DNA of 64,000 nt, from the IMG/VR virus record IMGVR_UViG_3300005826_000294, positions 124,001 to 188,000 of that record; one strand, given 5' to 3'. A model generated the notes under the pieces. The model saw only the letters and a program-made list of their open reading frames with translations, was not told the origin of the DNA and searched no databases. Position 1 is the stretch's first letter; every line of letters begins with the position of its first letter. Made by a program: the position numbers and the translations under genes. The DNA is from a virus. Positions 28,504 to 53,643 of the stretch are shown here, piece after piece.

Positions 28504-28504
28504 A

Positions 28505-36519: not shown

Positions 36520-37404
36520 TTATATTATCCTTCTTTGTCTTAAATGTCGTAACCTCATATAATTTGGGGAAACAGCAAGTACTCGAAATCCGCCGAAACC
36601 TGTTGGTATCGGTTTTATACTGTTTTTAATATACTTTAACATATCTGTATGTCTTTGAACGAAATGACTTAATTCATTATTTAAAGTAGCCGATAATGGG
36701 GGTGGGTTCATGGAGACACCATTATCTGTTAGTGTAAACTCTCTTCCTGCCTCAATTAACATTTGAGCGGCTGTAGCAAGAATAAAAGCACCCTCAACAA
36801 TTATATGAGCAAATCTTTTATATATTACTTCCATATCAAAAGTAAAATCTGTAAAATGAGGTGTTTGATTAAATTCACTTAAACTACATTTAAGAAAATA
36901 TACAAGTTCTTCATCTGTAAAAACAAAACAATCAACAAAGGTTGTATTACCATATGCATCAAGACTTTCAACTTCCAGATTATTCTTTAATCTTGCTTTT
37001 AGGCAAGTTAATAAGCAGTTAATACCTTGAATTTCCTCATCACTAAGAACTATCCTACAAGGATCTCCAATTTTATCTCCAGCGACACCAATATCAGCAT
37101 CTCTTTCAAGGACGATAAAGTTTAATCTCGCTTCCGTTGTAAAGCCATTTAGTGTTGCTCTCCAATGATCAACCCAAATACCTGTGGAGGAATTTTGTGG
37201 AACCATGAATGTTGTTCTATATCTACCAGAATCAATACGAGAAACATAAGCAGAAGAAAGGGAACGGACTACATTTCCTTGACTATCTATAATTTCAACT
37301 TCTGGAGATGAATCAGCATCGGCAACTTGACCTGTTGCATCTCTTAAATCTATTTCTAACACAACGGTCTGTCCTTTTATAACTTGCCTACAAGTTGTAA
37401 CCAT
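36520..37404 (-). CDS. Virion structural protein with N-terminal Ig-like domain
   Basis: 294 residues. Residues 1-100 form a beta-sandwich pattern (VLEIDLRDATGQVADADSSP, DSGRYRTTFMVP, GIWVDHWRATL) typical of Ig-like domains on phage baseplate or neck proteins. Residues 120-294 are mainly helical, with FTDEELVYFLKCSLSEF and ALNNELSHFVQRH-like helices, and a basic C-terminal end (MRLRHLRQRRII). A strong AGGAGG lies 4 bases before ATG 37404, within the 3' end of the upstream endonuclease. It may be a neck or baseplate-plate protein; not identified further. Confidence 0.5.
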   Translation of the reverse strand: MVTTCRQVIKGQTVVLEIDLRDATGQVADADSSPEVEIIDSQGNVVRSLSSAYVSRIDSGRYRTTFMVPQNSSTGIWVDHWRATLNGFTTEARLNFIVLERDADIGVAGDKIGDPCRIVLSDEEIQGINCLLTCLKARLKNNLEVESLDAYGNTTFVDCFVFTDEELVYFLKCSLSEFNQTPHFTDFTFDMEVIYKRFAHIIVEGAFILATAAQMLIEAGREFTLTDNGVSMNPPPLSATLNNELSHFVQRHTDMLKYIKNSIKPIPTGFGGFRVLAVSPNYMRLRHLRQRRII

Positions 37405-38317
37405 TGTTCCTCCTAAAATGCTCTATATATAATAAAAACTCCTTTCTATCAAACTTATCACTTTTAGACATATTATCCTTTGCTTTCAACCATTGATGAT
37501 TTTCTGGAGCAAAGGCAGCCTTTATGTGTATTGGATCATTAAAATCAAATGCTGAGAGTGGGAAAATATGATCAATATGATATTCATCTATATTTTCTGG
37601 AAATGGTTTTAAATGATCAATAATATCATTATATTTTATACTTTTATTCTTTATATTTCCAAATCTTGCTCTTAATTTAGTTTTAATTCTATAATTATTA
37701 TCATTTTTATATCTTTCTTTTCTATAACAATTTCTACATATTGTTCCGTTTTCTGTTTTCTTATATCCTTCTTTTATTTCACCACATTTACATTTATGTT
37801 TTGGAGCTTCATAACATTTTTCGCACAAATTATTTTTCTTTATTCCTATATTTCCGCATTTACATAAAATAGTTTTTCTTTTATATTGTTTTCCATAACA
37901 TTTTGAACATAATTTATTTGCTTCGATTGGTTTTATTTCTCCACATTTACATTTATATTTTGGAGCTTCATAACATTTTACACAAATAGGAAAACCATCT
38001 ATATATGAATAAATTGGCATATGTTTAAAGCATTTAGAACATTCAATTATTTTTCCTTTATAACAAGAACGACATATCGGCCCTTCTTTTACTGCTATTT
38101 CTTTATTCTTTTTACATATACAACATATTTGTTTAGGAGACTTATAACATTTATTACATTTAGTTTTTGTAATCATTTTAGAGTAATTACCGCAATTAGG
38201 ACATGTTTTTTTAATCCTACTATAACATTTTACACAAAAACCTTTTGCTTTATGTGGTTTTATATCACCACAGGATTTACATTTAATCACAGGCAATTTC
38301 AATTCTTGGAAAACCAT
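37388..38317 (-). CDS. Cys-rich HNH homing endonuclease
   Basis: 309 residues. The first 210 residues contain more than a dozen CxxC or CxC pairs in short zinc-ribbon repeats of the form K-C-x-C-G-x-I-K followed by C-x-K-C-Y. The C-terminal nuclease has an HNH core: DEYHIDHIFPLSAFDF, then APENHQWLKAKDN. Homologous genes lie at 41468 and 61895 with fewer ribbons. The annotated ATG overlaps the upstream virion gene by 35 bases with weak SD; internal GTG or TTG codons are alternatives. Its 3' end overlaps the next gene's ribosome site and start. Confidence 0.8.
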   Translation of the reverse strand: MVFQELKLPVIKCKSCGDIKPHKAKGFCVKCYSRIKKTCPNCGNYSKMITKTKCNKCYKSPKQICCICKKNKEIAVKEGPICRSCYKGKIIECSKCFKHMPIYSYIDGFPICVKCYEAPKYKCKCGEIKPIEANKLCSKCYGKQYKRKTILCKCGNIGIKKNNLCEKCYEAPKHKCKCGEIKEGYKKTENGTICRNCYRKERYKNDNNYRIKTKLRARFGNIKNKSIKYNDIIDHLKPFPENIDEYHIDHIFPLSAFDFNDPIHIKAAFAPENHQWLKAKDNMSKSDKFDRKEFLLYIEHFRRNNGYNL

Positions 38318-38606
38318 AAGGTCTTTCTACAACAAATTCAGCAATATTTTCTATTGTATCGTTCCCATATTCTCCCTGCATTATTGCTGTATAATTTCCT
38401 ATAATACTAAAAGATGTTTCCAACATATATGTGCCCTTTTTAAGTCTAAACATAGGGCGAGGATAACCAACAAGGTCAGTCCCATTAGGTTGAACAACTC
38501 TTTCAATTCTTGGATTTGCTATCTCTACAGGCACTCCATTTACTACAACTTCCCACGCTATTCTTGCGATATTGGGAGTTGGTTGAAAAGGTCCAATTCC
38601 AGGCAT
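38283..38606 (-). CDS. Small beta-rich virion protein
   Basis: 107 residues with alternating strands (IAWEVVVNGVPVEIANP, then RPMFRLKKGTYMLETSFSII), like a single Ig-like domain. It is part of a chain of small genes with 1-base overlaps (38606, 38884), probably translated together. Not recognised; likely a minor capsid, neck or appendage component because all neighbours are structural. Confidence 0.45.
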   Translation of the reverse strand: MPGIGPFQPTPNIARIAWEVVVNGVPVEIANPRIERVVQPNGTDLVGYPRPMFRLKKGTYMLETSFSIIGNYTAIMQGEYGNDTIENIAEFVVERPYGFPRIEIACD

Positions 38607-38884
38607 TATACTGGTGTCCTCCTATATGTTATAAAAAGTGGGCAACCGACTTCTGGAGGAAAAGGATCATCATCTATAAATGTAAATTCTAATGCTCCTG
38701 TCTCAAAAAAATCATTATTCTTTGTATATGAAACTCCATTATAAATCACTATCAATGAATCAGGAATATATTCTTGAGTTGTATTAAATATAAGTTTATA
38801 TCCGTCAATTTGATCAGTTATGTCCTCTTCAACATGTAAGTGATCTGGAGCAACTGTTCCATCAAATAAAGAAGAAATCGGCAT
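38606..38884 (-). CDS. Small beta-rich virion protein
   Basis: 92 residues. The sequence includes LHVEEDITDQIDGYKLIFNT, PDSLIVIYNGV and a final TYRRTPV. The segment SLIVIYNGVSYTKNNDFFE resembles the short module in phage fibre proteins that reads as V-Y-x-NG followed by a few strands (compare IYRNGQLL at 39282 and 42306). Overlaps both neighbours by 1 base. Function unknown beyond probable virion role. Confidence 0.45.
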   Translation of the reverse strand: MPISSLFDGTVAPDHLHVEEDITDQIDGYKLIFNTTQEYIPDSLIVIYNGVSYTKNNDFFETGALEFTFIDDDPFPPEVGCPLFITYRRTPV

Positions 38885-39204
38885 TAAGCCTCCTTAGCTG
38901 TCTTTTTCTTTTTAGTTTTTGGTTTTTCATCAACGATCAAAGGAGCTTCCATCTTTTCTTCTTCTACTACTTCTTCCTCAACTTTTTCTTCTTCTTCTCC
39001 ATTTTCTTGTAATACTGCTTGTTCTCGTAAAGCATTCATTCTACCAACTATAACCTTAATCATTTGTTCAGCACATTGAGCATATCCTGTATAAAATGCT
39101 TTTTGATCTAAAGCTTTATCTCTCACAGGTTCTAGTTGTAATTGCAGTTCTTGTAATCCATCAGCCATATTTCTCATTACTGTTACTTTTTCTTTATCTA
39201 CCAT
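38884..39204 (-). CDS. Helical protein with acidic then basic tail
   Basis: 106 residues. A helical N-terminal two-thirds (NMADGLQELQLQLEPVRDKA) is followed by a Glu-rich stretch and then KPKTKKKKTAKEA, a strikingly basic end. It is separated from the upstream Cys-rich fibre gene by a strong terminator, so it should be expressed at lower level or from read-through. Unrecognised; could be a trimer-assisting or scaffolding accessory. Confidence 0.45.
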   Translation of the reverse strand: MVDKEKVTVMRNMADGLQELQLQLEPVRDKALDQKAFYTGYAQCAEQMIKVIVGRMNALREQAVLQENGEEEEKVEEEVVEEEKMEAPLIVDEKPKTKKKKTAKEA

Positions 39205-39224
39205 TTCTTTAAACCCCTTTAACG

Positions 39225-39257
39225 AAAAAAAGGGACGGCGACTTCTGCCGCCGCCCC
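39225..39257 (-). terminator. Strong rho-independent terminator after Cys-rich fibre gene
   Basis: On the minus strand GGGGCGGCGGC pairs with GTCGCCGTCCC (11 pairs including G-U) around an AGAA loop, followed by seven U. It is one of the most GC-rich spots in the window and starts about 25 bases after the stop at 39282. It implies that the upstream fibre gene is highly transcribed. Confidence 0.9.
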
Positions 39258-39281
39258 GATAGGCATTAACCTAAAATATTA

Positions 39282-41444
39282 TTAAGTCATGTCTACAATT
39301 TGAACAATTGCGTTCTTTCTTAAGTTTCCACTAAATAATAAATTATTTAATGTTCCTGTCTGTCGGGCAACGTCATTTGCTACAGCACCTACAGTAGCTT
39401 TTGATGTTGGATCGTTATAGAGAAGTTGTCCATTTCTATAAATGAAAATATTATCTCTAAACTGGATATCAGTATATGTACTTAAATCTATTGCTGTCCC
39501 CTGATCAGCTGTACGAGAACTATCAAGAGTATCCGCAATAGATTCAGCCAAAGTAACCTCATAAACAGCCCTTTCAGGATTTAGAGTTACTGCACTTAAA
39601 GCATCATCAATTCCCTCTAATACACCAATAAGACTATTTACATCACCAACTGGAGTAATATTATCAAATATAGGCATTACATAATAAGCATCAATCCATC
39701 TATGAGTTGTATCACCCATTTGATAAGAATCATCACAACATGGAGTAAGATCACTACAAACTTCTGCTACTGTTAAACAACCAGTGATCTCAAGATTTTC
39801 AATTGTAGTGTCAGTGAAAATCAAATTATCAGCAGTTAAATTAACAAAATAACCATCATTAAATCTATGAGTTGAGTCTCCAATATCATAAGCATCATCG
39901 CAACAAGGAATGATATCGCTACAAATTCCACCATTGAAAACAACACATCCATCAAAAGTTGTAAGTCCTGTAACGTTAAGGTCATCTCCAATACTTACAT
40001 CTCCTGTGGTTGTAACATTGGTTGTGTTAACGTCAGTTGCATTAACGGTTGTAGCATTAACAGTTGTTACATCTATTGTTACAGCATCTAAGTTTGTAAA
40101 ATAACCATCATTAAATCTATGAGTTGAATCTCCAATATCATAAGCATCATCGCAACAAGGAATGATATCGCTACAAATTCCACCATTGAAAACAACACAT
40201 CCATCAAAAGTTGTTGTTCCATTTATATCTATATCATTAGTAACATTAAGATCAGTTGTATTTATAATTGTTGTGTTGATTGTAGTTGTATTAACTGTAG
40301 TAGAATCAAGATTTACAAAATATCCATCCTGCCATCTTTGAGTTTCACTACCAATATCATAAGCATCATCACAACAAGGTAAAATATCACTACAAACCAC
40401 ACCATCAAAATTAATACAATCTTCACTTCCAGTGCCTAAGAAAATATCGCCATCAAGTAAAATGTCTTCACTGGATAATGTAAGTTTTCCATCTCCATCT
40501 AAACATAATGATGCTTGATAGGCGTTTGATCCATCACCAGAATTAAGAACTACACAGGCATCTAGATCATCTGTATTTCCTTCATCACCAACATGAACAA
40601 CCGGATTTTGTTTTACACCATCTTCATAAATAACAAATTGAAATCTATCTCCATTAACACTATCTGTAATCATACATAGATAGCCATCAATTAGAGCTGT
40701 TCCATCGCCACCAGATAGAACTAAACAAGCATCTTCATCAGTTGCGGCATCAGCATCATTATTAACCTGCCAAGAATCACTTGGTGTCCCTGTTAGATTA
40801 GTAGTGCTATTAAATATATTTTCTAATGCTTCTTGAACATCATCACCAACTACAACACCACTATCATCTACACCAATCTTGCTAGCACCAGAATCTCCAA
40901 TTTCTGTTGAAGAAAGATCACCATAAGCGTCACCCGCACCGATATAAGCAATTGCTCTATCTGGTACAACATCTGATCCAGCAGTAAAAGATGAAGATAA
41001 TCCCCAATATCCATCAAAAACCCAACCAGTACGATTATATCCATCAGTATCTCGCTCTGAAAGACCTGTCCATGAACTTAATGATTCTGTACCACTAACA
41101 TTAAGTGTAGTAATTGGATCAGTTACTAACATTTGTTCTGTATTTATATATGTGGTTGTTCCATTAACAGTGAAATCACCCTGGACAATCGCATTTGCTT
41201 TCATTTCTACATTACCAGTAAAAGTAACCTGACCATCACCTGTCTGATTAATTTCACCATCATCTGCATGAATCTCTAATCTGGTAGCACCCCCGTTGGC
41301 GCGATCTTGAAAAATTAACCCTGTTAAATATCCATCTTCTAAGTCGCCACCCGAATATCCGTCAATCGTTAATTGCGCAAATTCATAACTACCATTAGAA
41401 TCTAATTGATCTGGACGGAGAACTGAACGTTGTGCCATCATCAT
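39282..41444 (-). CDS. Cys-rich repeat fibre/head-fibre-like virion protein
   Basis: 720 residues. Four copies of the fibre repeat usually reading IIP-D-YDLGS-RW-Y occur here as CSDIIPCCDDAYDIG, with adjacent cysteines at about 357/358, 430/431, 514/515 and 569/570 and a following DGYF. Between them lie Thr/Asn-rich beta linkers (TTVNTTTINTT-type) typical of trimeric fibres. The C-terminus (FIYRNGQLLYNDP) matches that of the 42306 protein and is a common fibre tip or capping module. Two of the repeats are nearly identical at DNA level (39846 and 40098). GGAGG lies 10 bases before ATG 41444; a strong terminator follows. Confidence 0.7.
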   Translation of the reverse strand: MMMAQRSVLRPDQLDSNGSYEFAQLTIDGYSGGDLEDGYLTGLIFQDRANGGATRLEIHADDGEINQTGDGQVTFTGNVEMKANAIVQGDFTVNGTTTYINTEQMLVTDPITTLNVSGTESLSSWTGLSERDTDGYNRTGWVFDGYWGLSSSFTAGSDVVPDRAIAYIGAGDAYGDLSSTEIGDSGASKIGVDDSGVVVGDDVQEALENIFNSTTNLTGTPSDSWQVNNDADAATDEDACLVLSGGDGTALIDGYLCMITDSVNGDRFQFVIYEDGVKQNPVVHVGDEGNTDDLDACVVLNSGDGSNAYQASLCLDGDGKLTLSSEDILLDGDIFLGTGSEDCINFDGVVCSDILPCCDDAYDIGSETQRWQDGYFVNLDSTTVNTTTINTTIINTTDLNVTNDIDINGTTTFDGCVVFNGGICSDIIPCCDDAYDIGDSTHRFNDGYFTNLDAVTIDVTTVNATTVNATDVNTTNVTTTGDVSIGDDLNVTGLTTFDGCVVFNGGICSDIIPCCDDAYDIGDSTHRFNDGYFVNLTADNLIFTDTTIENLEITGCLTVAEVCSDLTPCCDDSYQMGDTTHRWIDAYYVMPIFDNITPVGDVNSLIGVLEGIDDALSAVTLNPERAVYEVTLAESIADTLDSSRTADQGTAIDLSTYTDIQFRDNIFIYRNGQLLYNDPTSKATVGAVANDVARQTGTLNNLLFSGNLRKNAIVQIVDMT
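39846..39962. repeat. 117-bp direct repeat, copy A (within fibre gene)
   Basis: This segment matches 40098-40214 with a single mismatch. It encodes the third CSDIIPCC-type fibre repeat. Near-identity at synonymous sites shows a recent duplication or gene conversion, and a likely site for repeat-number change by recombination. Confidence 0.85.
40098..40214. repeat. 117-bp direct repeat, copy B (within fibre gene)
   Basis: Second copy of the repeat at 39846-39962, offset by 252 bases; it encodes the second CSDIIPCC-type fibre repeat. The DNA between the copies encodes Thr/Asn-rich linkers that differ, so only the core unit was duplicated or homogenised. Confidence 0.85.
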
Positions 41445-41467
41445 TGTACATATGCCTCCAAAATTAA

Positions 41468-42082
41468 CTATTTTTTATCTTTCATATATAACATAAACTT
41501 ATCAAACTCTTGTTTATTATACTTCCCGCCTTTTCTACAATTCTCATTTTTCTTCAACCATCTATGATTTTCTGGAGAAAAAGCAATTTTTATATGAGAT
41601 AAATTATTAAAATTAAAAGCAACCAAAGGAAATATATGATCAATATGATATTCTTTACGATCTCCTGGACAATTCCCTAAATGCTCAAAAATTTGTTGAT
41701 AATTAATTCCATATTCTCTTGATGTCTTCACCTTTCCTTTTTTGCTATATCTTTTAAACGCATTACATAATCTTTTTCTTAGAGTATCAATTACAGAATA
41801 TCTTTCTTTTTTTCTACATGAACTACAAATTGGATTACCATTATTCCTAACAAATACAAATCTTAAATTATTACATATAGAACATATTTCTTCATTTTTA
41901 TATTGTTTGTTATAACACTTTTGGCACATCACTCCATTTTTTATTGAATGAGTTTCTTTTATTTTACCACAAGTTTCACATTTTCTATTTTTTGGAGGAT
42001 GTTGTTTATTATAACAAGCTTTACATAAAATATTCTTTTTATTATATATTGTTTTTATTTTAAAGCACAAAGAACATTTCAT
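41468..42082 (-). CDS. Cys-rich HNH homing endonuclease
   Basis: 204 residues. About four zinc ribbons (CSLC, CKAC, CETCGKIKETHS, CQKC, CSIC, CSSC) are followed by the HNH core KEYHIDHIFPLVAFNF and SPENHRWLKKNEN. It belongs to the same family as 37388 and 61895 but has a shorter ribbon array. It starts with an ATGA overlap on the stop of the upstream gene and ends 24 bases before the Cys-rich fibre gene, again a precise junction insertion. Confidence 0.8.
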   Translation of the reverse strand: MKCSLCFKIKTIYNKKNILCKACYNKQHPPKNRKCETCGKIKETHSIKNGVMCQKCYNKQYKNEEICSICNNLRFVFVRNNGNPICSSCRKKERYSVIDTLRKRLCNAFKRYSKKGKVKTSREYGINYQQIFEHLGNCPGDRKEYHIDHIFPLVAFNFNNLSHIKIAFSPENHRWLKKNENCRKGGKYNKQEFDKFMLYMKDKK

Positions 42083-42309
42083 GAATTTTTGCTATAAATT
42101 ATCTTTTTTAACGAACGCATTTCATCATCATATTTACGCATATCGCTATTTATAAACTCTATTGCCAACATTTCAGCTTTATTTCCAGGATCTTCAAACA
42201 CAAAGTTAAATTTATCCCCACGGCCACACTCAATTAGACGAAGTCCCTGTAATTTGAGATATGCTGCTAACGCAATATCGCTAGTTGTATATGTCTCATT
42301 TTTAGTCAT
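42079..42309 (-). CDS. Small DUF5659-like protein
   Basis: 76 residues from ATG 42309, preferred because it forms an ATGA overlap with the upstream stop and has AGGTGAT 7 bases before it (a more upstream in-frame ATG at 42354 has no such site). The sequence TYTTSDIALAAYLKLQGLRL, then FVFEDPGN, matches the compact helix-strand pattern of DUF5659-type proteins found in phages and bacteria. Function is unknown; it is too small to be more specific. Confidence 0.5.
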   Translation of the reverse strand: MTKNETYTTSDIALAAYLKLQGLRLIECGRGDKFNFVFEDPGNKAEMLAIEFINSDMRKYDDEMRSLKKIIYSKNS

Positions 42310-42725
42310 AGTGTAATCACCTGTATAGTATCGCCCTTTAAAAGTTGCATACAAAACCGAATGTGACCGGTTGTACTTCCCGGATATACATCTGCCGGGT
42401 CATCTGGGTCTACAGGGAGTTGGTTTCCATTAAACAATAATTGTCCGTTTCTATAAATAGCTACGCGTTCTACAAATAATGCCGTATCATAAGTCAATCC
42501 ACCAGGAATAGCGAAATCTTGATAGGCTGGAAATTTACTCGTAAGTCTTATCCTCCCTATAGGAGCGTCATTGCTCAAGAGACGATCACATAATCCTACT
42601 GCGAGCTTTTCGCAGGTCACATTGTGATCTTTTATTTTCTCTGTAATTACAGAGTCCGTAGCTAGATCTACGCTTTCTATAGATCGATCTAGTACCTGGG
42701 ACCCTCTTACGAGAGATCTTGGCAT
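42306..42725 (-). CDS. Small fibre-like virion protein with shared C-terminal module
   Basis: 139 residues. The N-terminus (VLDRSIESVDLATDSVITEK) has the helical-beta repeat common near fibre attachment regions. The C-terminus (VAIYRNGQLLFNG, LKGDTIQVITL) matches the end of the 39282 fibre. GAGGAG lies 8 bases before ATG 42725, and a candidate late promoter is 81 bases upstream (42806). The 100-base leader between promoter and gene contains only a short GC-rich inverted repeat (TGCC/GGCA). Confidence 0.55.
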   Translation of the reverse strand: MPRSLVRGSQVLDRSIESVDLATDSVITEKIKDHNVTCEKLAVGLCDRLLSNDAPIGRIRLTSKFPAYQDFAIPGGLTYDTALFVERVAIYRNGQLLFNGNQLPVDPDDPADVYPGSTTGHIRFCMQLLKGDTIQVITL

Positions 42726-42805
42726 TAACTTAACTCCTCTTTAACAAAAACTAATTAACATAACTGCCCTAAGGCACGACTTTATAATCTACATACATAT
42801 GAGAT

Positions 42806-42814
42806 TATTGATAG
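42806..42814 (-). promoter_or_regulatory. Candidate phage late promoter motif
   Basis: Minus strand: seven A, then CTATCAATA, then AT-rich sequence with TAGATTATAAAG. It lies 12-20 bases beyond the stop of the AAA+ ATPase gene and starts the 42725 transcription unit. The A-tract and nonamer are identical to the copy before the sheath at 15684. Confidence 0.5.
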
Positions 42815-42825
42815 TTTTTTTATAA

Positions 42826-44415
42826 TTATGAACTAAGAGATACATCAAGTACGTAATCTTCAGTATTAAAAGTAAATCCACTCTTCACTCCAGCATCCAA
42901 AACACCAATTTGACTTAACATAATATTTTCTACTATATCAATTACTTGCTCAATAGTAATTGATCCGGTTCCTTGGATCTCTGATATACATGTATTTCTT
43001 ACAATTTCTTCACCAATTTGAGTAAATAATGCTCCACTCACTTGTTCTTGTCTCATTAAAGGCATCTTTTTTCCGCTCTTTAAAGTTGCTATAGCAAGGG
43101 GTTTTTCATTATCATAAATATGAGAAATTATTTTTTCAGTTATTTTTTCTTCTATAAGTTTATTTAATAATGGTGGTATTTCTCCACGAACAAATTCTAC
43201 ATTTAATATTTCTAAAGCAGCCTCTCTTGAAGGTCTTGAAATCTCTAAAATAGCATCTCCTAATCTTCCAGGTCTCATTAATGCTGGGTCAATTAATTCT
43301 GGCCTATTTGTTGCTCCAATAAAAATAACATCTTGATTAGTATCAACTCCTTGAAGTTCTGTAAGAAGTGTTGGAACAATAGTTTTTTCTGGAGAATATG
43401 TAGCAGTATCTTTTCTTTTTCCTGCAATACTTTCAATTTCATCCCAAAAAATAATAGATGTAAATCCAGTAGTTTCTGCCATTTTTCTTGCTTCATCAAA
43501 AAGTTTTCTTATAGAGGCTTCTGTATTTCCTGCCCATTTTGATAATAACTCCGGACCATTAATAAGAAAAAACCCTCTTTCATCGCTGGATCCTTTTATC
43601 TCAGCATTCTTTTCTCTTAATTTTAACATCTCATTAAATATTGCTTTAGCAATCATGGTTTTTCCACATCCTGGAGAACCATGAAGCAAGGCCGCTCTTA
43701 AAGGTTTTAATCCATATTTTTTAAACTTATCTTTATAAACAGTTGGGAATATTAATCTTTCTTGTAAATATTTCTTTTCTTCTTCTAAACCTTTTACATC
43801 TTCAAATGTTATGTTAGGAACCTCTGATAAAGAAAACATACTTTTTTCTCTTGTTCCAAGAACTTCAAGAACTATTTGAGATTCTAAATCATAACGGATT
43901 TCATCACCTTCTTTACAGAAAACCCAATCTGCTACTTTTAGAATTAGTTCATGTCCGCCATCATCTATAACTATTCTACTATCATCTAATACTCTTTGAA
44001 CTCTTGATAAACGACCATCATATATCTCATGATCCCGAATTCCAGCAAGCACGCGATCTGGTCCATGACCCATTACAAAAACTTCTGTTCCTGTTTTTAA
44101 TTTATTTACATCTACATCTGGAGAAATAATAATTTCTTCTTTTATTGGTCCCAATTGAACCAAAGCCCTTCTATTAGGAAGGGCTTTTACACATCTAACT
44201 CGTTGTCCAGACTTATCTTGTAAAACCTTAATTCTTTCACGAAGACTTTCTAATTCTCTTTTATATACATTAGCATTTTCAGCCTCTTCCATATAATACC
44301 ATAATACATCAATAAGATGAGACATTTCATTAGGAGTTAAGGCTTTTGATAATTCGTATTTTCCACCTCGTATGAAACATTCTCCAACTAATTTTTTTAC
44401 TTCAAATCTATCCAT
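42826..44415 (-). CDS. Mpa/ARC-type proteasomal AAA+ ATPase (unfoldase)
   Basis: 529 residues in the exact order of the bacterial proteasome activator Mpa/ARC: N-terminal helix/coiled coil (to about 70), two OB-like domains (about 72-190, with IISPDVDVNKLKTGTEVFVM aligned to the Mpa inter-domain block), then one AAA+ module. Walker A is GSPGCGKT (246-253), Walker B IIFWDE (321-326), pore loop KWAG (293-296), sensor 1 GATN (367-370), and RPGR at 381-384. The C-terminal helical domain also aligns with Mpa. The usual C-terminal GQYL proteasome-docking tail is missing (it ends DVSLSS). Expected role: a ring-shaped ATP-driven protein unfoldase. It follows the phosphoesterase gene by 10 bases. Confidence 0.85.
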   Translation of the reverse strand: MDRFEVKKLVGECFIRGGKYELSKALTPNEMSHLIDVLWYYMEEAENANVYKRELESLRERIKVLQDKSGQRVRCVKALPNRRALVQLGPIKEEIIISPDVDVNKLKTGTEVFVMGHGPDRVLAGIRDHEIYDGRLSRVQRVLDDSRIVIDDGGHELILKVADWVFCKEGDEIRYDLESQIVLEVLGTREKSMFSLSEVPNITFEDVKGLEEEKKYLQERLIFPTVYKDKFKKYGLKPLRAALLHGSPGCGKTMIAKAIFNEMLKLREKNAEIKGSSDERGFFLINGPELLSKWAGNTEASIRKLFDEARKMAETTGFTSIIFWDEIESIAGKRKDTATYSPEKTIVPTLLTELQGVDTNQDVIFIGATNRPELIDPALMRPGRLGDAILEISRPSREAALEILNVEFVRGEIPPLLNKLIEEKITEKIISHIYDNEKPLAIATLKSGKKMPLMRQEQVSGALFTQIGEEIVRNTCISEIQGTGSITIEQVIDIVENIMLSQIGVLDAGVKSGFTFNTEDYVLDVSLSS

Positions 44416-44425
44416 TTACTTTCCC

Positions 44426-45094
44426 TTATAATTCTATTAATTCTATATTCCCATCATCACCAATAATAACATAAGCTCTATGATGAGAATCAACCCAATC
44501 TCCTGTGTTATAATACATTGTATCATATATTTTTCTACAACAAGGCCTATGGGTATGTCCAGCTATAATAATATTTGCCTGACTTTCAAGTCTTACTAAT
44601 TTATTTTCTTGTTTTTGTAATAAAAATTTTTGTACTATCCATGTTTTATGTAAAGCATGTTGTAGATCTATGCCTGTTAATTCATAGATCAATCGATTAA
44701 ATCTAATAATAAAACGACTAAATTTAGGATATTTCATTACTGTTGAGTCTGTTTGATGTCCGTGATAAATCCTTATTATTTTATTATCAATTCTTAATAA
44801 AATATCTTTTTTAAATGAGATCTTTGGTAATATATCTTGTAATCCATAAACAAACCAGTCATGATTTCCATTTATATATATTATGTTTTTAAATTTCTGT
44901 ATTACTGATAAAAATGATCTATGTCTTTCATCAAAATTTAGATTTTTAGCAAAATCAAATATATCTCCATTTAATACTAAAGTACAATCTTTATTCGAGA
45001 AATTTTCCAATAAAGATAATAAACTCGGCAAATTTCTATTTGCTTGACGATCTCCTATATGAGTATCACTAAGGACCAACCACAATTTTTTCAA
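44426..45094 (-). CDS. Calcineurin-like metallophosphoesterase (LpxH-like)
   Basis: 222 residues with the full metal-site set: SDTHIG (D10, H12), NGDIFD (43-47), GNHD (76-79), HGH (111-113) and GHTH (179-182). The overall spacing is like LpxH-type UDP-diacylglucosamine pyrophosphatases or related small phosphodiesterases. Substrate is not predictable. The TTG start at 45094 lies within the end of the upstream gene; GGAG is only a base or two away, so a nearby TTG 9 bases later may be used instead. Part of a three-gene cassette with the AAA+ ATPase. Confidence 0.8.
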   Translation of the reverse strand: MKKLWLVLSDTHIGDRQANRNLPSLLSLLENFSNKDCTLVLNGDIFDFAKNLNFDERHRSFLSVIQKFKNIIYINGNHDWFVYGLQDILPKISFKKDILLRIDNKIIRIYHGHQTDSTVMKYPKFSRFIIRFNRLIYELTGIDLQHALHKTWIVQKFLLQKQENKLVRLESQANIIIAGHTHRPCCRKIYDTMYYNTGDWVDSHHRAYVIIGDDGNIELIEL

Positions 45095-45560
45095 ACTCCT
45101 TATTATTTAAACAATAATCATACAAATCTTCTGGAGTTGTAGATTCAGGTTCCATATTTGTTTTCAAACCTGATTTATTTAATAATATTGTAACTGCTTC
45201 CGAACAATGTAATTTTTTTGAATCTCTAAAAGGATTTCTATACCATTTCCCAAACCATCTTCTAGCACCTAATCCAAAAGCAGACCAAAAATCATATGTT
45301 CCTCCTAACCATTTTGCTATATATTTTAGACCCTCAGATAAGTCTTTATTACATTTAAATTCATCTACCAATTTATTCTTTTTAATCCATTTAGATTTTG
45401 GTGTTAATTTATATCCCCAAAAAGTTGCTTCAATTACAAATATGTCTTGTAAAACCTCTGAATAATATGTAGCAAAAGCATGACTAACTCTTCCTTTTGT
45501 AAACCATCTTATCAACTTTCCCATTATCCCCGAGCTTGAAGAAAATCCTATAGTAATCAT
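45069..45560 (-). CDS. Permuted papain-like (YiiX/NlpC-P60 type) hydrolase
   Basis: 163 residues from ATG 45560, which has AGGAGG 5 bases upstream (a GTG 6 bases earlier overlaps that site and is less likely). The order of motifs is a catalytic His first (GRVSHAF, H27), an acidic strand (VIEAT, E44) and Cys late (LHCSEAV, C119). This is the circularly permuted NlpC/P60 or YiiX family, which includes amidases, acyltransferases and proteases. No signal peptide. It overlaps the phosphoesterase gene by 26 bases. It may act on peptide, lipid or cell wall; the sequence does not decide. Confidence 0.7.
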   Translation of the reverse strand: MITIGFSSSSGIMGKLIRWFTKGRVSHAFATYYSEVLQDIFVIEATFWGYKLTPKSKWIKKNKLVDEFKCNKDLSEGLKYIAKWLGGTYDFWSAFGLGARRWFGKWYRNPFRDSKKLHCSEAVTILLNKSGLKTNMEPESTTPEDLYDYCLNNKEFEKIVVGP

Positions 45561-45583
45561 AAGCACCTCCTATTGACGGCACT

Positions 45584-46684
45584 TTAACTATCATCATAAC
45601 TCAAACAATAAAAAGTTGCTGTTGCTAACGAACCTCCTAACTCAACATCATGTTGTAATTTAACTAAAATTTCCATACCATAATTTCCAAATATCTCTGT
45701 AACTGCTTGATAGTTCCAAGGATATGTGATTACATCAACATCAAGATCTCTCCAAGTTGGAGTTTGACATGTTGTAGCAGGAATTGGGGGTTTAGAACCA
45801 TTAGCCTCATTAATATAATCTATTTGTGATTTATAAATAGTTGGATTCCCAAGAGGAATTTTTGTACCACTTGGATATGGAGTTGGTGTGTATTGTGGAG
45901 CAAAAACATCAACTAATCCATATGGTTGAAATGTAACAGAATCTTTAATTGAAATATTGCTACTAAATTGAACCTCAGTAGATACAATTTTTAACTTTTT
46001 TCCACTTTGTGGTCTTAAAATCCAATCAGATCCATTTACTTCATATGTATCTACAGTGATAGTCTCAGATTCAGATAATGGAGTTAAAAATGTAACTCTA
46101 GAATTACGATAATCTACTATAAAATCCCCTCCATATCCATCATGAGGGTCTTGTTCTGTTTTCTCTACATCATCAACATAAACTTTTAATCTAGGGACAT
46201 AACCTTCTTCTGTTGTAATAAAATCTTCATCACTATATTTTCCATGATAATTATCAATCCAACATTTTCCAGTTGGACTATCATAATTGGTGTGATCACC
46301 AGAATCAACTAAAGTCTGTCCAGATACTTTTATAGATTTAAAATACCAAGTAGTTTTATCAGTCCAATTTGGTGTAATCGCTGTATATCTCGATCCTTCA
46401 GTGCTTTCAACAGATACACGAAGAACATTATCTTTTGTTACTTTTTCTAATGAATTTACTTCTTCTATAGGAACTCCATCATGTCCATTAAGTGTAAATC
46501 CAAGAAGAGATTCATCTCCAACATCTAATTCATCTTTCATAAAAACACTAATAGTATCTCCAATAACATTTATATGACTTAATGCTATTTTTATTTCACT
46601 ATCGCGAATCTCTTCAGTCAATTTTTCAATATCTACAGCTTCATTTAAAGTATCTGATGCTACAGAGTATGTATATTCTGCCAT
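45584..46684 (-). CDS. Virion structural protein, beta-rich
   Basis: 366 residues. Mostly strands and turns, with PHDGYGGDFIVDYRNSRVTFLTPL and GKKLKIVSTEVQFSSNISIKD, a pattern common in phage baseplate-periphery or fibre proteins. No catalytic motif found. Overlaps the upstream gene by 1 base and precedes the non-structural cassette by 23 bases. Specific role not known. Confidence 0.45.
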   Translation of the reverse strand: MAEYTYSVASDTLNEAVDIEKLTEEIRDSEIKIALSHINVIGDTISVFMKDELDVGDESLLGFTLNGHDGVPIEEVNSLEKVTKDNVLRVSVESTEGSRYTAITPNWTDKTTWYFKSIKVSGQTLVDSGDHTNYDSPTGKCWIDNYHGKYSDEDFITTEEGYVPRLKVYVDDVEKTEQDPHDGYGGDFIVDYRNSRVTFLTPLSESETITVDTYEVNGSDWILRPQSGKKLKIVSTEVQFSSNISIKDSVTFQPYGLVDVFAPQYTPTPYPSGTKIPLGNPTIYKSQIDYINEANGSKPPIPATTCQTPTWRDLDVDVITYPWNYQAVTEIFGNYGMEILVKLQHDVELGGSLATATFYCLSYDDS

Positions 46685-47268
46685 TATATTCTCCTTACAG
46701 AAACTTTACTATCTTTAATTGATATTTCTTTACCATTTTTTGTTGTTGATGCTTGAAATTTTATACAATGATAACCAGATTCCCATTCTATATTTAAAAA
46801 ACTACACTGGGTAATCCAACTCTCACTGTCTAATGATTCAAGAACATATAAGTCTTCATTATCTATATTAACTCTTAAAGAAATTAATCCTTTTTTATTT
46901 TTTCTTTTAACATTTGTGGTCCAATCTATACGATAATTACCAGAACAAAAAGGACTATTTGGGTTTATAGATATAATTGTCATTGGCTCTGTAGAAGATG
47001 TATTTATCTCTTGTTCTTGTGTTCCTTCTAATTCATTTATTAAAGTATTATTTTCTATTCCAAAATCTACAATATCTTTTTCTTCCTGATTCATTTCAAT
47101 TATATTATATCCATCATATCCATCATACCCATCAATTTTCCAATATTTTGAAGGAATGTCTTCTACATTAGATAAATCAGGATTAATTATCCAATCTTCT
47201 GTTGAATAGTCAGGAGTATTAACTGATAATAAGTATTCTTTTGTAGTCTTATTTAAAACATTCGCCAT
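46684..47268 (-). CDS. Virion structural protein with DGY cluster
   Basis: 194 residues. Contains KIDGYDGYDGYNIIEM, three DGY units in a row. A beta-rich C-terminal half (NSPFCSGNYRIDWTTNVKRK, GLISLRVNIDNEDLYVLESL) looks like an Ig-like domain. It starts 2 bases after the LamG-type gene. Not recognised; an appendage protein by context. Confidence 0.45.
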   Translation of the reverse strand: MANVLNKTTKEYLLSVNTPDYSTEDWIINPDLSNVEDIPSKYWKIDGYDGYDGYNIIEMNQEEKDIVDFGIENNTLINELEGTQEQEINTSSTEPMTIISINPNSPFCSGNYRIDWTTNVKRKNKKGLISLRVNIDNEDLYVLESLDSESWITQCSFLNIEWESGYHCIKFQASTTKNGKEISIKDSKVSVRRI

Positions 47269-47270
47269 AA

Positions 47271-47909
47271 CTATCTCCTACGAGGTCTTAAAGCCGCATC
47301 ATATACATAACTAGGAGCACCAGATGCTGAAGAAAAATTAATCTGACTTTGTCCCATATTTTTTACCACCCCTGTTCCAGAAATTGTAGAACCATTTGCT
47401 CCACCAAAAAGAGTCAAACGAGTAGTCATTCCATATACAATTGAATCACTTCCACGAGAATTATAAATTGTTAATGCTTCGGACGCATTTAATTTTCTTG
47501 TATATAATCTAATATCATATAAACTTCCATTAAAATAATTAGTTGTTCCATATCTACTAAATAAAGCCGCAAGACCACTTTGAGGAGTATTAACAGATGT
47601 ATTTGTATTTATTAATGCTCCATTAACATACATCTCTGCCGTATTATTAAAATCATTCCATGTACATACAAAATGATATAATACTCCAATTGAAAGAGTA
47701 TAATTTAACCCACTGCCTTCATTACCAAAATCATTATAAAACGTTGTTCCATCTATTCTGCCTTCAAAATCGTTTCCAGTTCCAAAAAAACGCTGAACAC
47801 CAGTTAAAGAATTAGCACGAATCCAAAAACTAATAGATCCTATTATACCAGGAGAAAATGATGATACACTTTGTGCTCCATAGCCAGTTCCAGGTGCTGA
47901 AAGTCCCAT
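47271..47909 (-). CDS. LamG/concanavalin-like lectin-domain protein
   Basis: 212 residues from ATG 47909, which overlaps the upstream stop (TAATG) and has GGAG just before it; an ATG at 47945 is less supported. The pattern GSISFWIRAN, then YHFVCTWNDFNNTAEMYVNG and a final GSLYDIRLYTRKLNASEA is that of the laminin-G-like jellyroll domain family. Such domains on phage virions bind sugars, so it may help adsorption. It follows the large spike gene and may be its partner. Confidence 0.75.
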   Translation of the reverse strand: MGLSAPGTGYGAQSVSSFSPGIIGSISFWIRANSLTGVQRFFGTGNDFEGRIDGTTFYNDFGNEGSGLNYTLSIGVLYHFVCTWNDFNNTAEMYVNGALINTNTSVNTPQSGLAALFSRYGTTNYFNGSLYDIRLYTRKLNASEALTIYNSRGSDSIVYGMTTRLTLFGGANGSTISGTGVVKNMGQSQINFSSASGAPSYVYDAALRPRRR

Positions 47910-50900
47910 TAGCTCCATCCTATCGTTATAGAATGTAATAACCAATCACCAGGTAAAGTATCAGTTGGAACATTACGACATAACTCAAAAAGATATGTAA
48001 CTCCAACTGTTAATCCTAATGTGCTTATAGCTATTGTTTGAGAATCCTTTTGATAATACACATTGTTAGGCATAGATAAGTTTGTTAATAATGTTGGAGA
48101 TCCCCATGCAGGTATAACAGCATTGTCAGGAATTGCTCTTTTATATAAGTTTAATCCAACATTTGCTGTTGTGGCTGCCGTGGCTCTACGACTAAGAAAT
48201 CCTAAAATAATGTTTGTAGCCCCTGTTGGAACACGAATTGTAAATCCTACACCTTCTACTGTTGTATCATCAAATGCTCTTACTGACAATGCTGTGTTAT
48301 TAGCATCTGGAATAAGAGGTGCTAGTGAATTAACTGCCCAGTCTGAACTTACAGGAGATTCTAATTGATCAGCTTGAAATATCTTATGAGGAACAATAGA
48401 ACTTCCACCACTAACCGCCGCCCATGATGGATTTGAACCAACACCATTTGTTTTTAAATAATAACCAGATGTTCCATAACCTAAACGAACCCAGTTTGTT
48501 CCATTATGATATAAAATATCCCCTTGAACAGGATTTCCAGCAGCCTGTACTGATCTTACTGTTGTTGAGTTTCCATTATTTATATTAGTAGTGTGACCAG
48601 TAACCAAATTGTCTGCTAAATAACAATTATTTGTATTTGCACCAGAAGCAATTCTTATTCCATCCCCAGTGTTATTTAAAATTCTATTACTAGCAATAAG
48701 AATATTAGTACTATTAGCATCTGCTGTTACATAAATACCATGACTACCATTACCATGAATATGGTTATTAGAAATTAAACTATTTGTATCTACAGTACAT
48801 TCAATTCCACTTCCACCATTGCTTGCTATGTGACATGAAGTAACTAAACTATCTTCTCCAGTCCATATTCCTTCTCCAACATTGTTTTCAATAGTACACA
48901 TAGAAATTACATCTTCTTCTCCATCTGTATCAATGCCTACTCCACCATTGTTACTTGAAACACAACTAGAAATTATTGTTGAGTTAGAACCTATTGCGGT
49001 TTCTATACCCTCAGCATCATTATAGTTTAAAACACAATGAGAAATAAGTGTAGATACTGCTCCACTTTGAACTAAAATACCATTTGATCCATTATTACAG
49101 GCATTGGTAGATGAAATGGCAACAGTATTACAACCAGATCCAACTACAATACCATTTCCAACATTACCAGATACAAGTCCTGAAAAAGATACTGATCTAC
49201 AATTACTATATGTAATTCCTACTCCACATTGAACAACTCCAATATCAGAAAAAGCCGCTGATCCGGAATCTTCAACTACTACACCAACATTACAACCTTG
49301 TATTTCCATTCTACGAAAAATACAACTAATTGCTCCTCTTACTAATAATGCATTTCCTGTTGCTCCACTTAAAGTTATATTATCTATATTAGCAGAAGTA
49401 ACCGCTGAGGTTCCAAGCATTGCTTGTCCAGATATTGTTAAACCTTCATAAGTTCCAGCAACAGTTAAATGAGTATTATCTGTAATACTAGCAATTTGAT
49501 AAAATGTTCCTCCAATAGCAATGAAATCTCCTGGAGATAAATTTGTAAAAGTCGTTCCACTACCTACTACAGCAGATGTTCCAGATGTTATAGATATAGT
49601 CCCAGATTCTTCTGTTGTACCTCCATTTCCATCAATAGTAACACTATATCCATTAGATAAATCTATAATACAATCATCTTCTCCTAATAGAAGACCTCCA
49701 TCTGGAACCACTATATTTGCTGTCTCAACATATGTTCCTGTTCTTACAAAAACAGATTTAGCTCCAGATGTAAAAGCAGCTGAAGGAAGTGTGTAATCTC
49801 CACCAGAAGGGGCAACAATAGCATCATATAAAGTTTGACCTCCACCAGGGCCCGCTGGGCCCGTAGCTCCAGATGCTTCTGCATCACGGATTACTAAACC
49901 ACAAGCATTAGCCGTAGTTATAAAATCTTTATCGTTAAATTCCGTTGCTTGAATTTTTATTTTATCGCCATCATTTAATTCGGCTAAAATTGTTGCAGAT
50001 CCACCACCAGATAAATCATTTTTAGATACTCCTGATCTAATACGACTTCCGCCTATTTCATTATATCCACCACCTGTATCTAATACTAAACGAGCAAGAG
50101 CATGTCCATCATTCCCACCAGTTACTTCAAAACTCATATAATATGTAATTTCATACCAACCATCAGTATTTATTTCTACAACGGCAGAATCTGTTGTATG
50201 TGTAAATGCGGAATCTTCACGGACTTCAGTATCAAGAGTTATATCAACCCAACTTGGACTATCAGGAATATCAATTCCACCAGCAGCATCATAAGCAAAA
50301 AATAAAGCTCTACTACTTCCAGATCCTCCTGGAGGCTCTGCCCATGTCCCATCTGCTCTAAGATAATTAATAATTCCACCACCAAGTTTTGGTAGAAGAC
50401 CATGATAAGATGTTGTTGAATTTAAATCTGTATTATCATCAGGAGAAGCTAAATCATCTAATTTAATAGCATCATCTCCTCCTGACTGATGAGTAGATGC
50501 GTGTAATGGAAGAGAACCTGGTATAGAAGCACATTGCCATCTAGAAGATGTTGTTGTATAAGACAGAGCAACTCCACTTCCTGATTTTATAATCAAATCT
50601 GAATCATTTGGTAATGCTAATCTTTGAGTACTAGTAGATCCCAGATCTTCATGTTTTAGAGTTAGATCATAATCAGATAAATTTGTAACCCACATAAATT
50701 TCCCATGATCAACTTGTGAAAACCCAGTGACTTCAAAATTTTGATTTGCCGAATGAAATTGAGCCATTCCATAATCTTCAATATCAACATTATCATAAGA
50801 GGTTGTAGATCCGACGTTTATTCCATATGGACTTTGGGCGATACTTCTAATATTGGCAGCAGTATCAGTTTGAATAGGATCGCCCATAGTAGCAATACGT

Positions 50901-51985
50901 CCATCATCGCTAATAATAAAACTACTATTTTGTAAGATTTTACCTGTTGTCCCATCCCATCGAGCGGCGGCATTATCTGTAGAACTACCCGGTCCCGAAA
51001 TATCTCCAGATCCTGATCCTGATACAACATATTCAATATTTCCAGAACCAGAATTATATGCTAAAATATATCCATCAGCAATTCCTGAATCATCAACATT
51101 AACTCCCATAATTTGATAAGCATCTTGTCTATCAGCTAAAACCCCATTAAGCCCAGCAACATTTATTTCATCATCTCCACCATTTTGATGCCTTGGAGCA
51201 TGTAATAGAAAATCAGAATTAAGATTAGTTATTTCGCTTTGTAGATAAGCATCTTGAGAAATTGAATCAGAATTAAGATTAGTTAATTCACTCTGTAAAT
51301 AAGCATCTTGACTTATAGAATCAAAGTTTAAATTAGTTATTTCGCTTTGTAGATAAGCATCTTGAGAAATTGAATCAGAATTAAGATTAGTTAATTCACT
51401 CTGTAAATAAGCATCTTGACTTATAGAATCAGAGTTTAAATTGGTTATTTCACTCTGTAGATAAGCATCGGCAGAAATATAATCAATATAAATACTTGAA
51501 ATTTCACCTTGTAAATAGGCATCTTGACTTATAGAATCAGAGTTTAAATTAGTTAATTCACTCTGTAAATAAGCATCTTGATTTATAGAATCAGAGTTTA
51601 AATTAGTTAATTCACTCTGTAAATAAGCATCTTGATTTGTTATAGTTTGAAATATATCAGGTAAATCATATCCATCAACCAAATTAACATTAATTATATT
51701 ATAGCCCTCAAGATCCAAATTACCATTAATTGTAGTATTATTAATAACAATTTCAGAATCGGCCGCTTCTTGTGGAGTATTAGATGGATCTGTTTCAACA
51801 AAAACCCATCCTAAAGTTTCCATATAATTATCTAAATCATCTTTTGAAGTTGATGGTGCTGTAACATCCCAAACAACTAAAGAAGCAATATAACCAGAAG
51901 AAATAGAGGAAGCATCAGCAGGTGGAACTTGGTTTTTAACCTTATTAATATCTACACCAGAAAATTTATATCTATAAACAGGCAT
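47909..51985 (-). CDS. Long tail fibre/spike with 18-residue repeats and beta-helix
   Basis: 1358 residues. Residues about 115-260 contain eight copies of an 18-residue unit (SISQDAYLQSELTNLNSD), probably a trimeric helical shaft. Two fibre-hinge modules of the type HxxxHQNGGDDEI occur (near 265 and 500). A beta-sandwich domain (about 560-700) is followed by a short collagen-like GATGPAGPGGG. A pectate-lyase-like beta-helix (about 725-1150) begins YVETANIVVPDGG. A C-terminal beta domain ends the protein. It is a likely receptor-binding or glycan-targeting appendage. Confidence 0.75.
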   Translation of the reverse strand: MPVYRYKFSGVDINKVKNQVPPADASSISSGYIASLVVWDVTAPSTSKDDLDNYMETLGWVFVETDPSNTPQEAADSEIVINNTTINGNLDLEGYNIINVNLVDGYDLPDIFQTITNQDAYLQSELTNLNSDSINQDAYLQSELTNLNSDSISQDAYLQGEISSIYIDYISADAYLQSEITNLNSDSISQDAYLQSELTNLNSDSISQDAYLQSEITNLNFDSISQDAYLQSELTNLNSDSISQDAYLQSEITNLNSDFLLHAPRHQNGGDDEINVAGLNGVLADRQDAYQIMGVNVDDSGIADGYILAYNSGSGNIEYVVSGSGSGDISGPGSSTDNAAARWDGTTGKILQNSSFIISDDGRIATMGDPIQTDTAANIRSIAQSPYGINVGSTTSYDNVDIEDYGMAQFHSANQNFEVTGFSQVDHGKFMWVTNLSDYDLTLKHEDLGSTSTQRLALPNDSDLIIKSGSGVALSYTTTSSRWQCASIPGSLPLHASTHQSGGDDAIKLDDLASPDDNTDLNSTTSYHGLLPKLGGGIINYLRADGTWAEPPGGSGSSRALFFAYDAAGGIDIPDSPSWVDITLDTEVREDSAFTHTTDSAVVEINTDGWYEITYYMSFEVTGGNDGHALARLVLDTGGGYNEIGGSRIRSGVSKNDLSGGGSATILAELNDGDKIKIQATEFNDKDFITTANACGLVIRDAEASGATGPAGPGGGQTLYDAIVAPSGGDYTLPSAAFTSGAKSVFVRTGTYVETANIVVPDGGLLLGEDDCIIDLSNGYSVTIDGNGGTTEESGTISITSGTSAVVGSGTTFTNLSPGDFIAIGGTFYQIASITDNTHLTVAGTYEGLTISGQAMLGTSAVTSANIDNITLSGATGNALLVRGAISCIFRRMEIQGCNVGVVVEDSGSAAFSDIGVVQCGVGITYSNCRSVSFSGLVSGNVGNGIVVGSGCNTVAISSTNACNNGSNGILVQSGAVSTLISHCVLNYNDAEGIETAIGSNSTIISSCVSSNNGGVGIDTDGEEDVISMCTIENNVGEGIWTGEDSLVTSCHIASNGGSGIECTVDTNSLISNNHIHGNGSHGIYVTADANSTNILIASNRILNNTGDGIRIASGANTNNCYLADNLVTGHTTNINNGNSTTVRSVQAAGNPVQGDILYHNGTNWVRLGYGTSGYYLKTNGVGSNPSWAAVSGGSSIVPHKIFQADQLESPVSSDWAVNSLAPLIPDANNTALSVRAFDDTTVEGVGFTIRVPTGATNIILGFLSRRATAATTANVGLNLYKRAIPDNAVIPAWGSPTLLTNLSMPNNVYYQKDSQTIAISTLGLTVGVTYLFELCRNVPTDTLPGDWLLHSITIGWS
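51210..51637. repeat. 54-bp tandem repeat, eight units
   Basis: Eight imperfect 54-base units within the fibre gene 47909-51985, each encoding an 18-residue helical repeat with the DAYLQ core. Several units are nearly identical in DNA and one (around 51480) is diverged. This is a coding tandem repeat, not a CRISPR array. Confidence 0.9.
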
Positions 51986-52725
51986 TATGATGCTACCTCC
52001 AAACTAGCAACTATATTATCAGGACTACTGGAAATTGAAGAAGATTTATTTACTCTTATTGCTATAAGATCACCAGCAGATACATTTGCCGAATTTACTA
52101 AATCTGAACCATCTTGAGCAGTATTAGACATGGCAACTACTAATGAAGAACCAGATCCATTAACCAATACTGTATAAGTGATTGTGGCAGAACCAGATCC
52201 AGCGGAATTATGACGAACTCTAAGATTTTTAAGAACTCCAGAATATGGAATTCTCATTGAAGCAACAGTTGTCTCAGCAACAGAATCATCATATCCTGGA
52301 GTTAAATATCTAACTGTTGTTGAAGTAGCAATATCATCATCTCCCCATATTAAAATAGCATGAACAAGATCTCCTACCTGAACACTTTTCTTATTATAAC
52401 CATCAGCACTATCCTCTATAACTACTAAATCAGAAAATACTGGATCGGTTTTTCCACTAATACCACTGATTTCATTAGCAACATTATCATGAATCGCATC
52501 ATTATCAATGCTGGTTCCAGAGTTTGTTATTTCAACCCAAGTTGGAGTGGTTTCTGTTAAAACCCACCAGGTAAGAGTATCTATTTCTTTTGCTATTTTC
52601 CCAATATCAGTAGATGTAAAACCAGATGCTCCAGTTCGTGCCGAAGAATCTGCATATTCATATGCGTGTGAAATATGTATTCCATCTGTTATATCTTGCT
52701 GACTATGTTTAGGATGACAAGTCAT
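51985..52725 (-). CDS. Virion structural protein, beta-rich
   Basis: 246 residues. The N-terminus starts with HPKHSQQDITDGIHISHAYE, similar to the lead segments of short fibre proteins. The C-terminal 110 residues (RIPYSGVLKNLRVRHNSAGS, then ITYTVLVNGSGSSLVVAMS) form a jellyroll-like beta domain frequent in fibre and head-decoration proteins. One-base overlap with the next gene. Exact role unknown. Confidence 0.5.
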   Translation of the reverse strand: MTCHPKHSQQDITDGIHISHAYEYADSSARTGASGFTSTDIGKIAKEIDTLTWWVLTETTPTWVEITNSGTSIDNDAIHDNVANEISGISGKTDPVFSDLVVIEDSADGYNKKSVQVGDLVHAILIWGDDDIATSTTVRYLTPGYDDSVAETTVASMRIPYSGVLKNLRVRHNSAGSGSATITYTVLVNGSGSSLVVAMSNTAQDGSDLVNSANVSAGDLIAIRVNKSSSISSSPDNIVASLEVAS

Positions 52726-52728
52726 AAT

Positions 52729-53376: not shown

Positions 53377-53385
53377 TAAAACTCC

Positions 53386-53643
53386 TTATTTTTTTATGAA
53401 TCCATACGTATTTGGATCAAAAACCCAATCCTCTTCATCAGGCATCCCTCTATTCTTAGCTAATGCTCTTAAATGATTCATAAATTCGTTTTCTAATGAA
53501 CTTAATCTTTCTAATAGAGTTTGTTCAGTTCTTAAAGCCTGACGCCTAACAGAACCTATGGCGGCCATAGAATCTTTAATATCTTGCTGATACTTTTGAA
53601 CAGCCTGCTTTTCTTCAATAGTTAAAACCATATTCTCTTCCAT
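53386..53643 (-). CDS. Small coiled-coil protein
   Basis: 85 residues, mainly one long charged helix (VQKYQQDIKDSMAAIGSVRR, then QTLLERLSSLENEFMNHLRA) ending in an aromatic tail (DWVFDPNTYGFIKK). Not recognised. In a chain of small genes between the HNH protein and fibre genes; might be a fibre chaperone. Confidence 0.45.
   Translation of the reverse strand: MEENMVLTIEEKQAVQKYQQDIKDSMAAIGSVRRQALRTEQTLLERLSSLENEFMNHLRALAKNRGMPDEEDWVFDPNTYGFIKK

Follow-up and report, generated by a model that had tools for sequence, protein, structure and literature searches.

A divergent Mpa/ARC-type AAA+ ATPase lacking the proteasome-docking tail is encoded by a phage

Mpa/ARC is known as the unfoldase of the actinobacterial proteasome, with pupylation as the tag. 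Members of this family are ring-shaped hexamers, with coiled-coil pairs atop a double-OB ring, which is followed by the ATPase ring. In Mpa, a flexible linker and then a GQYL motif come after the beta-grasp domain. The GQYL end is present in 56 cellular ARCs of the set compared here. Tail-less cellular ARCs also exist, and the sampled Corynebacterium ARCs are without GQYL. Corynebacterium lacks prcBA, and pupylated ferritin is the proposed substrate that its ARC would unfold in the absence of a proteasome (PMC8223512). Interaction with the 20S proteasome in the absence of GQYL has been shown by Cpa (PMC8223512).

A related ATPase is encoded in a virus record of 301,683 bp. The window, which is the whole stretch of 64,000 nucleotides analysed, comprises positions 124001-188000 of this record. 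The record encodes fibres, a tail sheath and a baseplate wedge protein, and most of it is syntenic with another phage contig, G035. Because of the tail genes and this synteny the phage origin, assumed from the letters alone in an earlier sequence-only reading of the DNA, is not in doubt. The gene at 42826-44415 on the minus strand (record positions 166826-168415) is an unbroken frame of 529 codons with an ATG start. The translated sequence of 529 amino acids terminates in DYVLDVSLSS.

The protein is a divergent member of the Mpa/ARC-type AAA+ proteins. The Pfam AAA family matches with E=1.7e-33, and the proteasomal-ATPase OB family Prot_ATP_ID_OB_C matches weakly, under the family cut-off. The top NCBIfam family is TIGR03689 (pup_AAA), with 254.5 bits and residues 52-497 aligned to profile positions 28-477 of 512. 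This score is about half of the equivalog threshold of 504.75 bits; thus the protein is ARC-type by architecture and not a TIGR03689 equivalog. Full-length scores are 311 bits with an ARC profile, 281 with a profile of phage ARC-like proteins, 171 with CDC48, 126 with PAN and 119 with FtsH, the five profiles being unequal in depth. The separate segments were compared with shuffled controls. Residues 1-195 alone give 39.6 bits with the cellular ARC profile and 28.0 with the phage ARC-like profile, vs. at most 6.4 bits with PAN, FtsH and CDC48, where shuffled sequences reach 7; the N-terminal segment is thus not above the controls with the PAN profile. Residues 409-529 give 13.8 bits (cellular ARC) and 12.1 bits (phage ARC-like), and PAN, FtsH and CDC48 are at or below zero. 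As judged from these profiles, all three segments favour ARC.

Searches of structure and genome databases by sequence gave related results. CDC48/p97 entries are on top when the PDB is searched with the sequence of the ATPase, but this rank is due to the two AAA domains per entry, whose scores add up. With a family profile, Mpa is the only match that runs unbroken from the N-terminus through the C-terminal domain (434 bits), compared with ∼252 bits for a single CDC48-type domain among the alignments shown. A ranking of 84,980 species genomes by the ATPase, made with two patterns of which one favours ARC, has only ARC proteins as its best cellular matches; their 30-40% identity spans the OB, AAA and C-terminal parts. 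No full-length relative above about 31% identity was found, so functional conservation cannot be checked by orthologues. An FtsH identity was considered, since many of the phage matches carry an FtsH annotation, and was rejected because the protein has no M41 peptidase domain and its N- and C-terminal segments match ARC only. It is highly probable that the ATPase is of the ARC type.

The predicted structure displays the domain order of Mpa/ARC. An AlphaFold2 model was made without templates from 53 aligned sequences (mean pLDDT 85.9, pTM 0.72); the alignment included ARC proteins, so that model and sequence result are not wholly separate lines of evidence. An N-terminal coiled-coil helix of 40 residues (28-67; 44215-44334, minus strand as for all parts of the gene) is followed by two five-stranded OB folds. 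The first, at residues 71-126 (44038-44205), is defined by the model and segment profiles and includes the block ISPDVDVNKLKTG, which can be aligned with ARC; the second, at residues 135-187 (43855-44013), is in addition matched weakly by Pfam. The AAA+ module comprises residues ∼196-410 (43186-43830), as seen in the model, Pfam, the profiles and the tree. It carries Walker A, GSPGCGKT, at residues 246-253 (43657-43680), and pore loop 1, KWAG, at residues 293-296 (43528-43539), which corresponds to K-F-V-G of Mpa. Walker B residues D325/E326, sensor N370 and arginines R381/R384 are also conserved, and the catalytic residues are thus intact. A C-terminal beta-grasp-like domain at residues 439-529 (42829-43101), delimited by the model and segment profiles, ends in DVSLSS. 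Its strands 439-445, 450-454 and 522-527 pack round helix 461-481, and the unit occupies the place of the Mpa beta-grasp (PMC8755798). The sequence-only reading had listed the coiled coil, tandem OB region, AAA+ module, the block, both loop motifs and a specific C-terminal domain, all of which are seen in the alignment or the model; the double OB fold, whose absence was to speak against the assignment, is present as two barrels. The structure prediction and fold search it proposed point the same way: in a Foldseek search of the PDB with the model, ranks 1-30 are all Mpa chains (E 1e-34 to 1e-27), followed by 26S Rpt subunits (5e-24). Among the viral predicted structures of BFVD, none spans the whole fold.

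The protein thus shares with Mpa/ARC (TIGR03689) the coiled coil, double OB, AAA+ with a pore loop of the Ar-Hb-Gly type and beta-grasp, and Mpa/ARC is both the best PDB fold match and the best family profile over its whole length. It differs in the absence of the post-beta-grasp linker and GQYL, in an identity of about 31% at best, and in that searches of the phage record gave no match to Pup, PafA/Dop or 20S. PAN and Rpt have a similar unfoldase layout of coiled coil, OB and AAA+, but with one OB fold and no beta-grasp.

Phylogenetic trees place the ATPase on the ARC side. In the tree of the AAA core (95 rows), cellular ARC, the phage ARC-like proteins and the ATPase are separated from CDC48, PAN and FtsH with support of 100/94, and in the full-length tree the ARC side, including the ATPase, is separated from PAN at 100/99. 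The branch of the ATPase is extremely long, however (2.5 for the AAA core and 5.0 for the full-length sequence). AU tests give p values of 0.45 for joining the ATPase to the phage clade, 0.41 for cellular ARC and, with the AAA core alone, 0.35 for CDC48 and 0.22 for FtsH; kinship to neither of the last two is rejected, because the branch is very long. Placement in another AAA+ clade, which was to speak against the sequence-only reading, is thus not borne out by the trees, though less sharply than the absence of the double OB fold. Since the branch is so long, the AAA tree by itself does not carry the ARC assignment, which is based on domain architecture and segment matches.

The chain stops at the last beta-grasp strand, both in the model and in the translation, without linker or GQYL; the missing GQYL had already been read from the letters. 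Neither GQYL nor a penultimate aromatic docking motif is present at the C-terminus. That tail-less ARCs have a cellular precedent in Corynebacterium corrects the sequence-only reading, which gave docking by GQYL as the rule. Corynebacterium ARC is similar to the phage protein in having the ARC architecture and no GQYL, and it is proposed to unfold without degrading. It differs in that Corynebacterium keeps Pup, PafA and Dop for substrate tagging, none of which was found in the phage record. An ARC-type ATPase without GQYL is also encoded by a contig labelled Nanoarchaeota (a MAG, locus L098); it is full in length and branches deeply within the ARC clade. This could be a case of misbinning.

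The protein had been described as if it were a single case, but scans of IMG/VR detected about 70 distinct phage-labelled ARC-like ATPases, several of them on contigs between 180 and 530 kb in size, and a shorter relative in Brevundimonas phages (e.g. Strzyga) is already named 'proteasome-associated ATPase' in GenBank. A scan of viral contigs with the ATPase as a single protein gave no relative. Among the ∼70 phage ARC-like proteins, none has a GQYL end and none a penultimate aromatic residue. The sampled proteins with OB domains, such as those of a 532-kb contig (L025) and a 340-kb contig (L299), are grouped in one clade (99/99) next to cellular ARC. The best trees leave the ATPase of the window outside this clade, with the AU p of 0.45 for joining it. 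Members of the clade resemble it in being phage-encoded ARC-type AAA+ proteins with the C-terminal domain, mostly one or more OB domains and no GQYL. Some IMG/VR records may hold host DNA. Cellular-type behaviour is seen for L023 and also for L207, which falls among the cellular ARCs in the tree and was left out of the phage count; L189 was excluded as cellular. Not counted either was MT835496.1 (L005), an INPHARED entry labelled 'Bacteriophage sp.' with an Mpa gene. The part fetched is actinobacterial in content, with the gene order TrmI-like methyltransferase, Mpa, Dop, PafA, and the entry is likely to be mislabelled host DNA.

Genes next to the phage ARC-like ATPases are recurrent. Directly downstream, an open reading frame of 45-120 amino acids with a Cys-pair tail is found at 22 of 42 loci, against a background of 43 in 1258 windows (3.4%). 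The small proteins are charged and apparently disordered, with a short helix motif and Cys-rich C-termini such as SSGCTCW, RRGPCGC and RCGCG; the loci include L026, L193, L196, L272, L293, L300, L273, L278, L282, L292 and L309. At 20 loci of IMG/VR and INPHARED, the first, second or third gene after the ATPase encodes a DUF1360 membrane protein. For two of the 20, PF07098 (DUF1360) matches with 1.8e-7 and 3.9e-9. A motif of the CP[YW]C..HW type is carried by the DUF1360 protein, at loci such as L006, L026, L193, L269, L282, L293 and L300. No description of a phage operon or gene set with an ARC-type ATPase was found in the literature searched.

In size, layout and gene position, the small Cys-tailed proteins are reminiscent of Pup, but the sequences give no support for kinship. 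Pfam Pup does not match them. N-terminal Pup-likeness exceeds the 95% control in six of 26. With a profile of the Cys-tailed proteins, real Pups score well above shuffled sequences and equal to reversed Pups. The likeness is therefore that of an acidic amphipathic helix, and Pup homology is not claimed. The clade and the window phage differ in these neighbours: they are frequent in the clade, whereas neither the Cys-tailed gene nor DUF1360 was found in the window phage.

In the window phage, the ATPase gene is surrounded by minus-strand genes of another kind. Directly upstream is a calcineurin-like metallophosphoesterase of 222 amino acids (44426-45094; Metallophos_2, 7e-12), whose gene stops 10 bp before the ATPase start; the two genes probably share one transcript. 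A protein of 165 amino acids at 45069-45566 matches phrog_1128 (3e-13), with no significant match in the PDB or INPHARED. From its SHA...LHCSEAV motif, it is possibly a circularly permuted hydrolase of the papain/NlpC-P60 fold. Downstream of the ATPase lies a fibre-like protein of 139 amino acids (42306-42725), the C-terminal part of which (IYRNGQLLxN) resembles, on comparison of the translations by eye, that of a 720-amino-acid fibre-like protein at 39282-41444.

These genes are part of an accessory fibre island on the minus strand at 37388-53386 (16 kb), delimited by comparison with the phage contigs G035 and G037. In G035, 9.7 kb of other fibre-type genes are present instead (106029-115735). 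In G037, the place of the island is nearly empty, with about 0.8 kb (90086-90848), and the surrounding tail module is syntenic. An orthologue of the ATPase was found in none of the syntenic phages G035, G036 and G037. Since the island is replaced in one relative and almost absent in another, the ATPase is an accessory gene and not one of the core tail-assembly set of the lineage. A 1347-amino-acid protein (24469-28512), when used as query for further relatives of the phage, gave no match.

A search of the phage genome for Pup, PafA/Dop and proteasome subunits had been suggested. No match to the 20S proteasome (PF00227), PafA/Dop (PF03136), Pup (PF05639) or ClpP (PF00574) is present in the 301,683-bp record, which may be incomplete. 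Pfam scans of 183 proteins outside the window, with the first 25 families per set considered, list no Clp or FtsH peptidase. The same scans show trigger factor, a DnaJ-like protein, EF-Ts and the archaeal-type peptidyl-tRNA hydrolase PTH2 in one set of the record (G000, A2, 187656-300000), and PrkA kinase, SpoVR and DUF444, each with a strong Pfam match, in another (A1, 1-96500). The last three constitute a stress-operon trio in bacteria.

Because the ATPase lacks a docking tail and the record has yielded neither a 20S or ClpP protease nor a Pup system, the explanation we favour, with some reserve, is that it unfolds or disassembles proteins in the infected cell on its own (a stand-alone unfoldase), without a coupled protease. 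A hexamer, threading and the lack of coupled proteolysis are what we infer for it. Three coiled-coil pairs of the hexamer would recruit a protein, the target being chosen by the coiled coils or by some adaptor. The KWAG pore loops would then pull the polypeptide through the OB and ATPase rings, driven by ATP, and the product would be released instead of degraded, as proposed for Corynebacterium ARC with ferritin. The protein acted upon may be either a phage structural protein or a host complex that stands in the way of infection. The sequence-only reading had likewise proposed remodelling of the virion or of host proteins without a proteasome, or else work with a different protease. Counted against this explanation are the AU tests of the AAA core, the lack of a closer full-length relative, the ARC proteins in the alignment behind the model, and the absence of a Cys-tailed or DUF1360 neighbour in the window phage. 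A host peptidase may also be a partner, since the record may be incomplete, and by analogy a 20S contact of the Cpa type would not need GQYL. The ATPase might then hand host or phage proteins to a compartmental protease of the host, 20S or other, as part of host takeover. Every structural part of a proteasomal unfoldase but the tail is kept, and Cpa is a precedent (PMC8223512); but the tail is missing here and in all ∼70 phage relatives, and the record has yielded no peptidase partner, which makes delivery to a host protease unlikely.

Location suggests another role, that of a chaperone in virion assembly or fibre maturation, by which the tail fibres of the neighbouring genes would be remodelled. 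The gene is situated between fibre genes of the tail module and directly upstream of a fibre-like open reading frame. Yet G035, with fibres of its own, has retained the tail module in the absence of the ATPase, and G037 also does without it. Around other phage ARC-like genes this fibre context is not seen, and adjacency may only mirror insertion into a variable island. The accessory location lowers the standing of this role without removing it, and we regard it as improbable. The very long branch (2.5 and 5.0), and the AAA-core AU tests that reject neither CDC48 nor FtsH kinship, would agree with a moron under relaxed selection or with a generic CDC48/FtsH-like AAA+ protein whose N-terminal domains are convergent. 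Against both stand the intact catalytic motifs, the 529-codon frame without a break, the N- and C-terminal segments that match ARC only and the Mpa fold over the full length. Both readings are very doubtful.

With the stand-alone unfoldase as the favoured role, viruses seem to have reused the ARC motor for something other than proteasomal degradation. Phage ARC motors without a docking tail would show a second, proteasome-independent life of the ARC machine in viruses, and the set would offer simple systems for ARC unfolding without degradation. The operon of ATPase, Cys-tailed protein and DUF1360 in the related phages names candidate partners. A tentative and rather speculative extension is that these phages have proteasome-free ARC systems, in which an unfoldase, a small, disordered, Pup-like Cys-tailed recruiter and the DUF1360 membrane protein would extract particular proteins or take them apart in the course of infection, and of which the ATPase of the window would be a distant branch with the same motor but not the two partners.

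At seven loci of phage ARC-like genes (L030, L032, L200, L206, L278, L287 and L326), a recurrent protein family is found within five genes of the ARC-like gene. At four of these (L030, L206, L278 and L326), the neighbour is itself an AAA+ protein, about 500-560 amino acids long and partly related.
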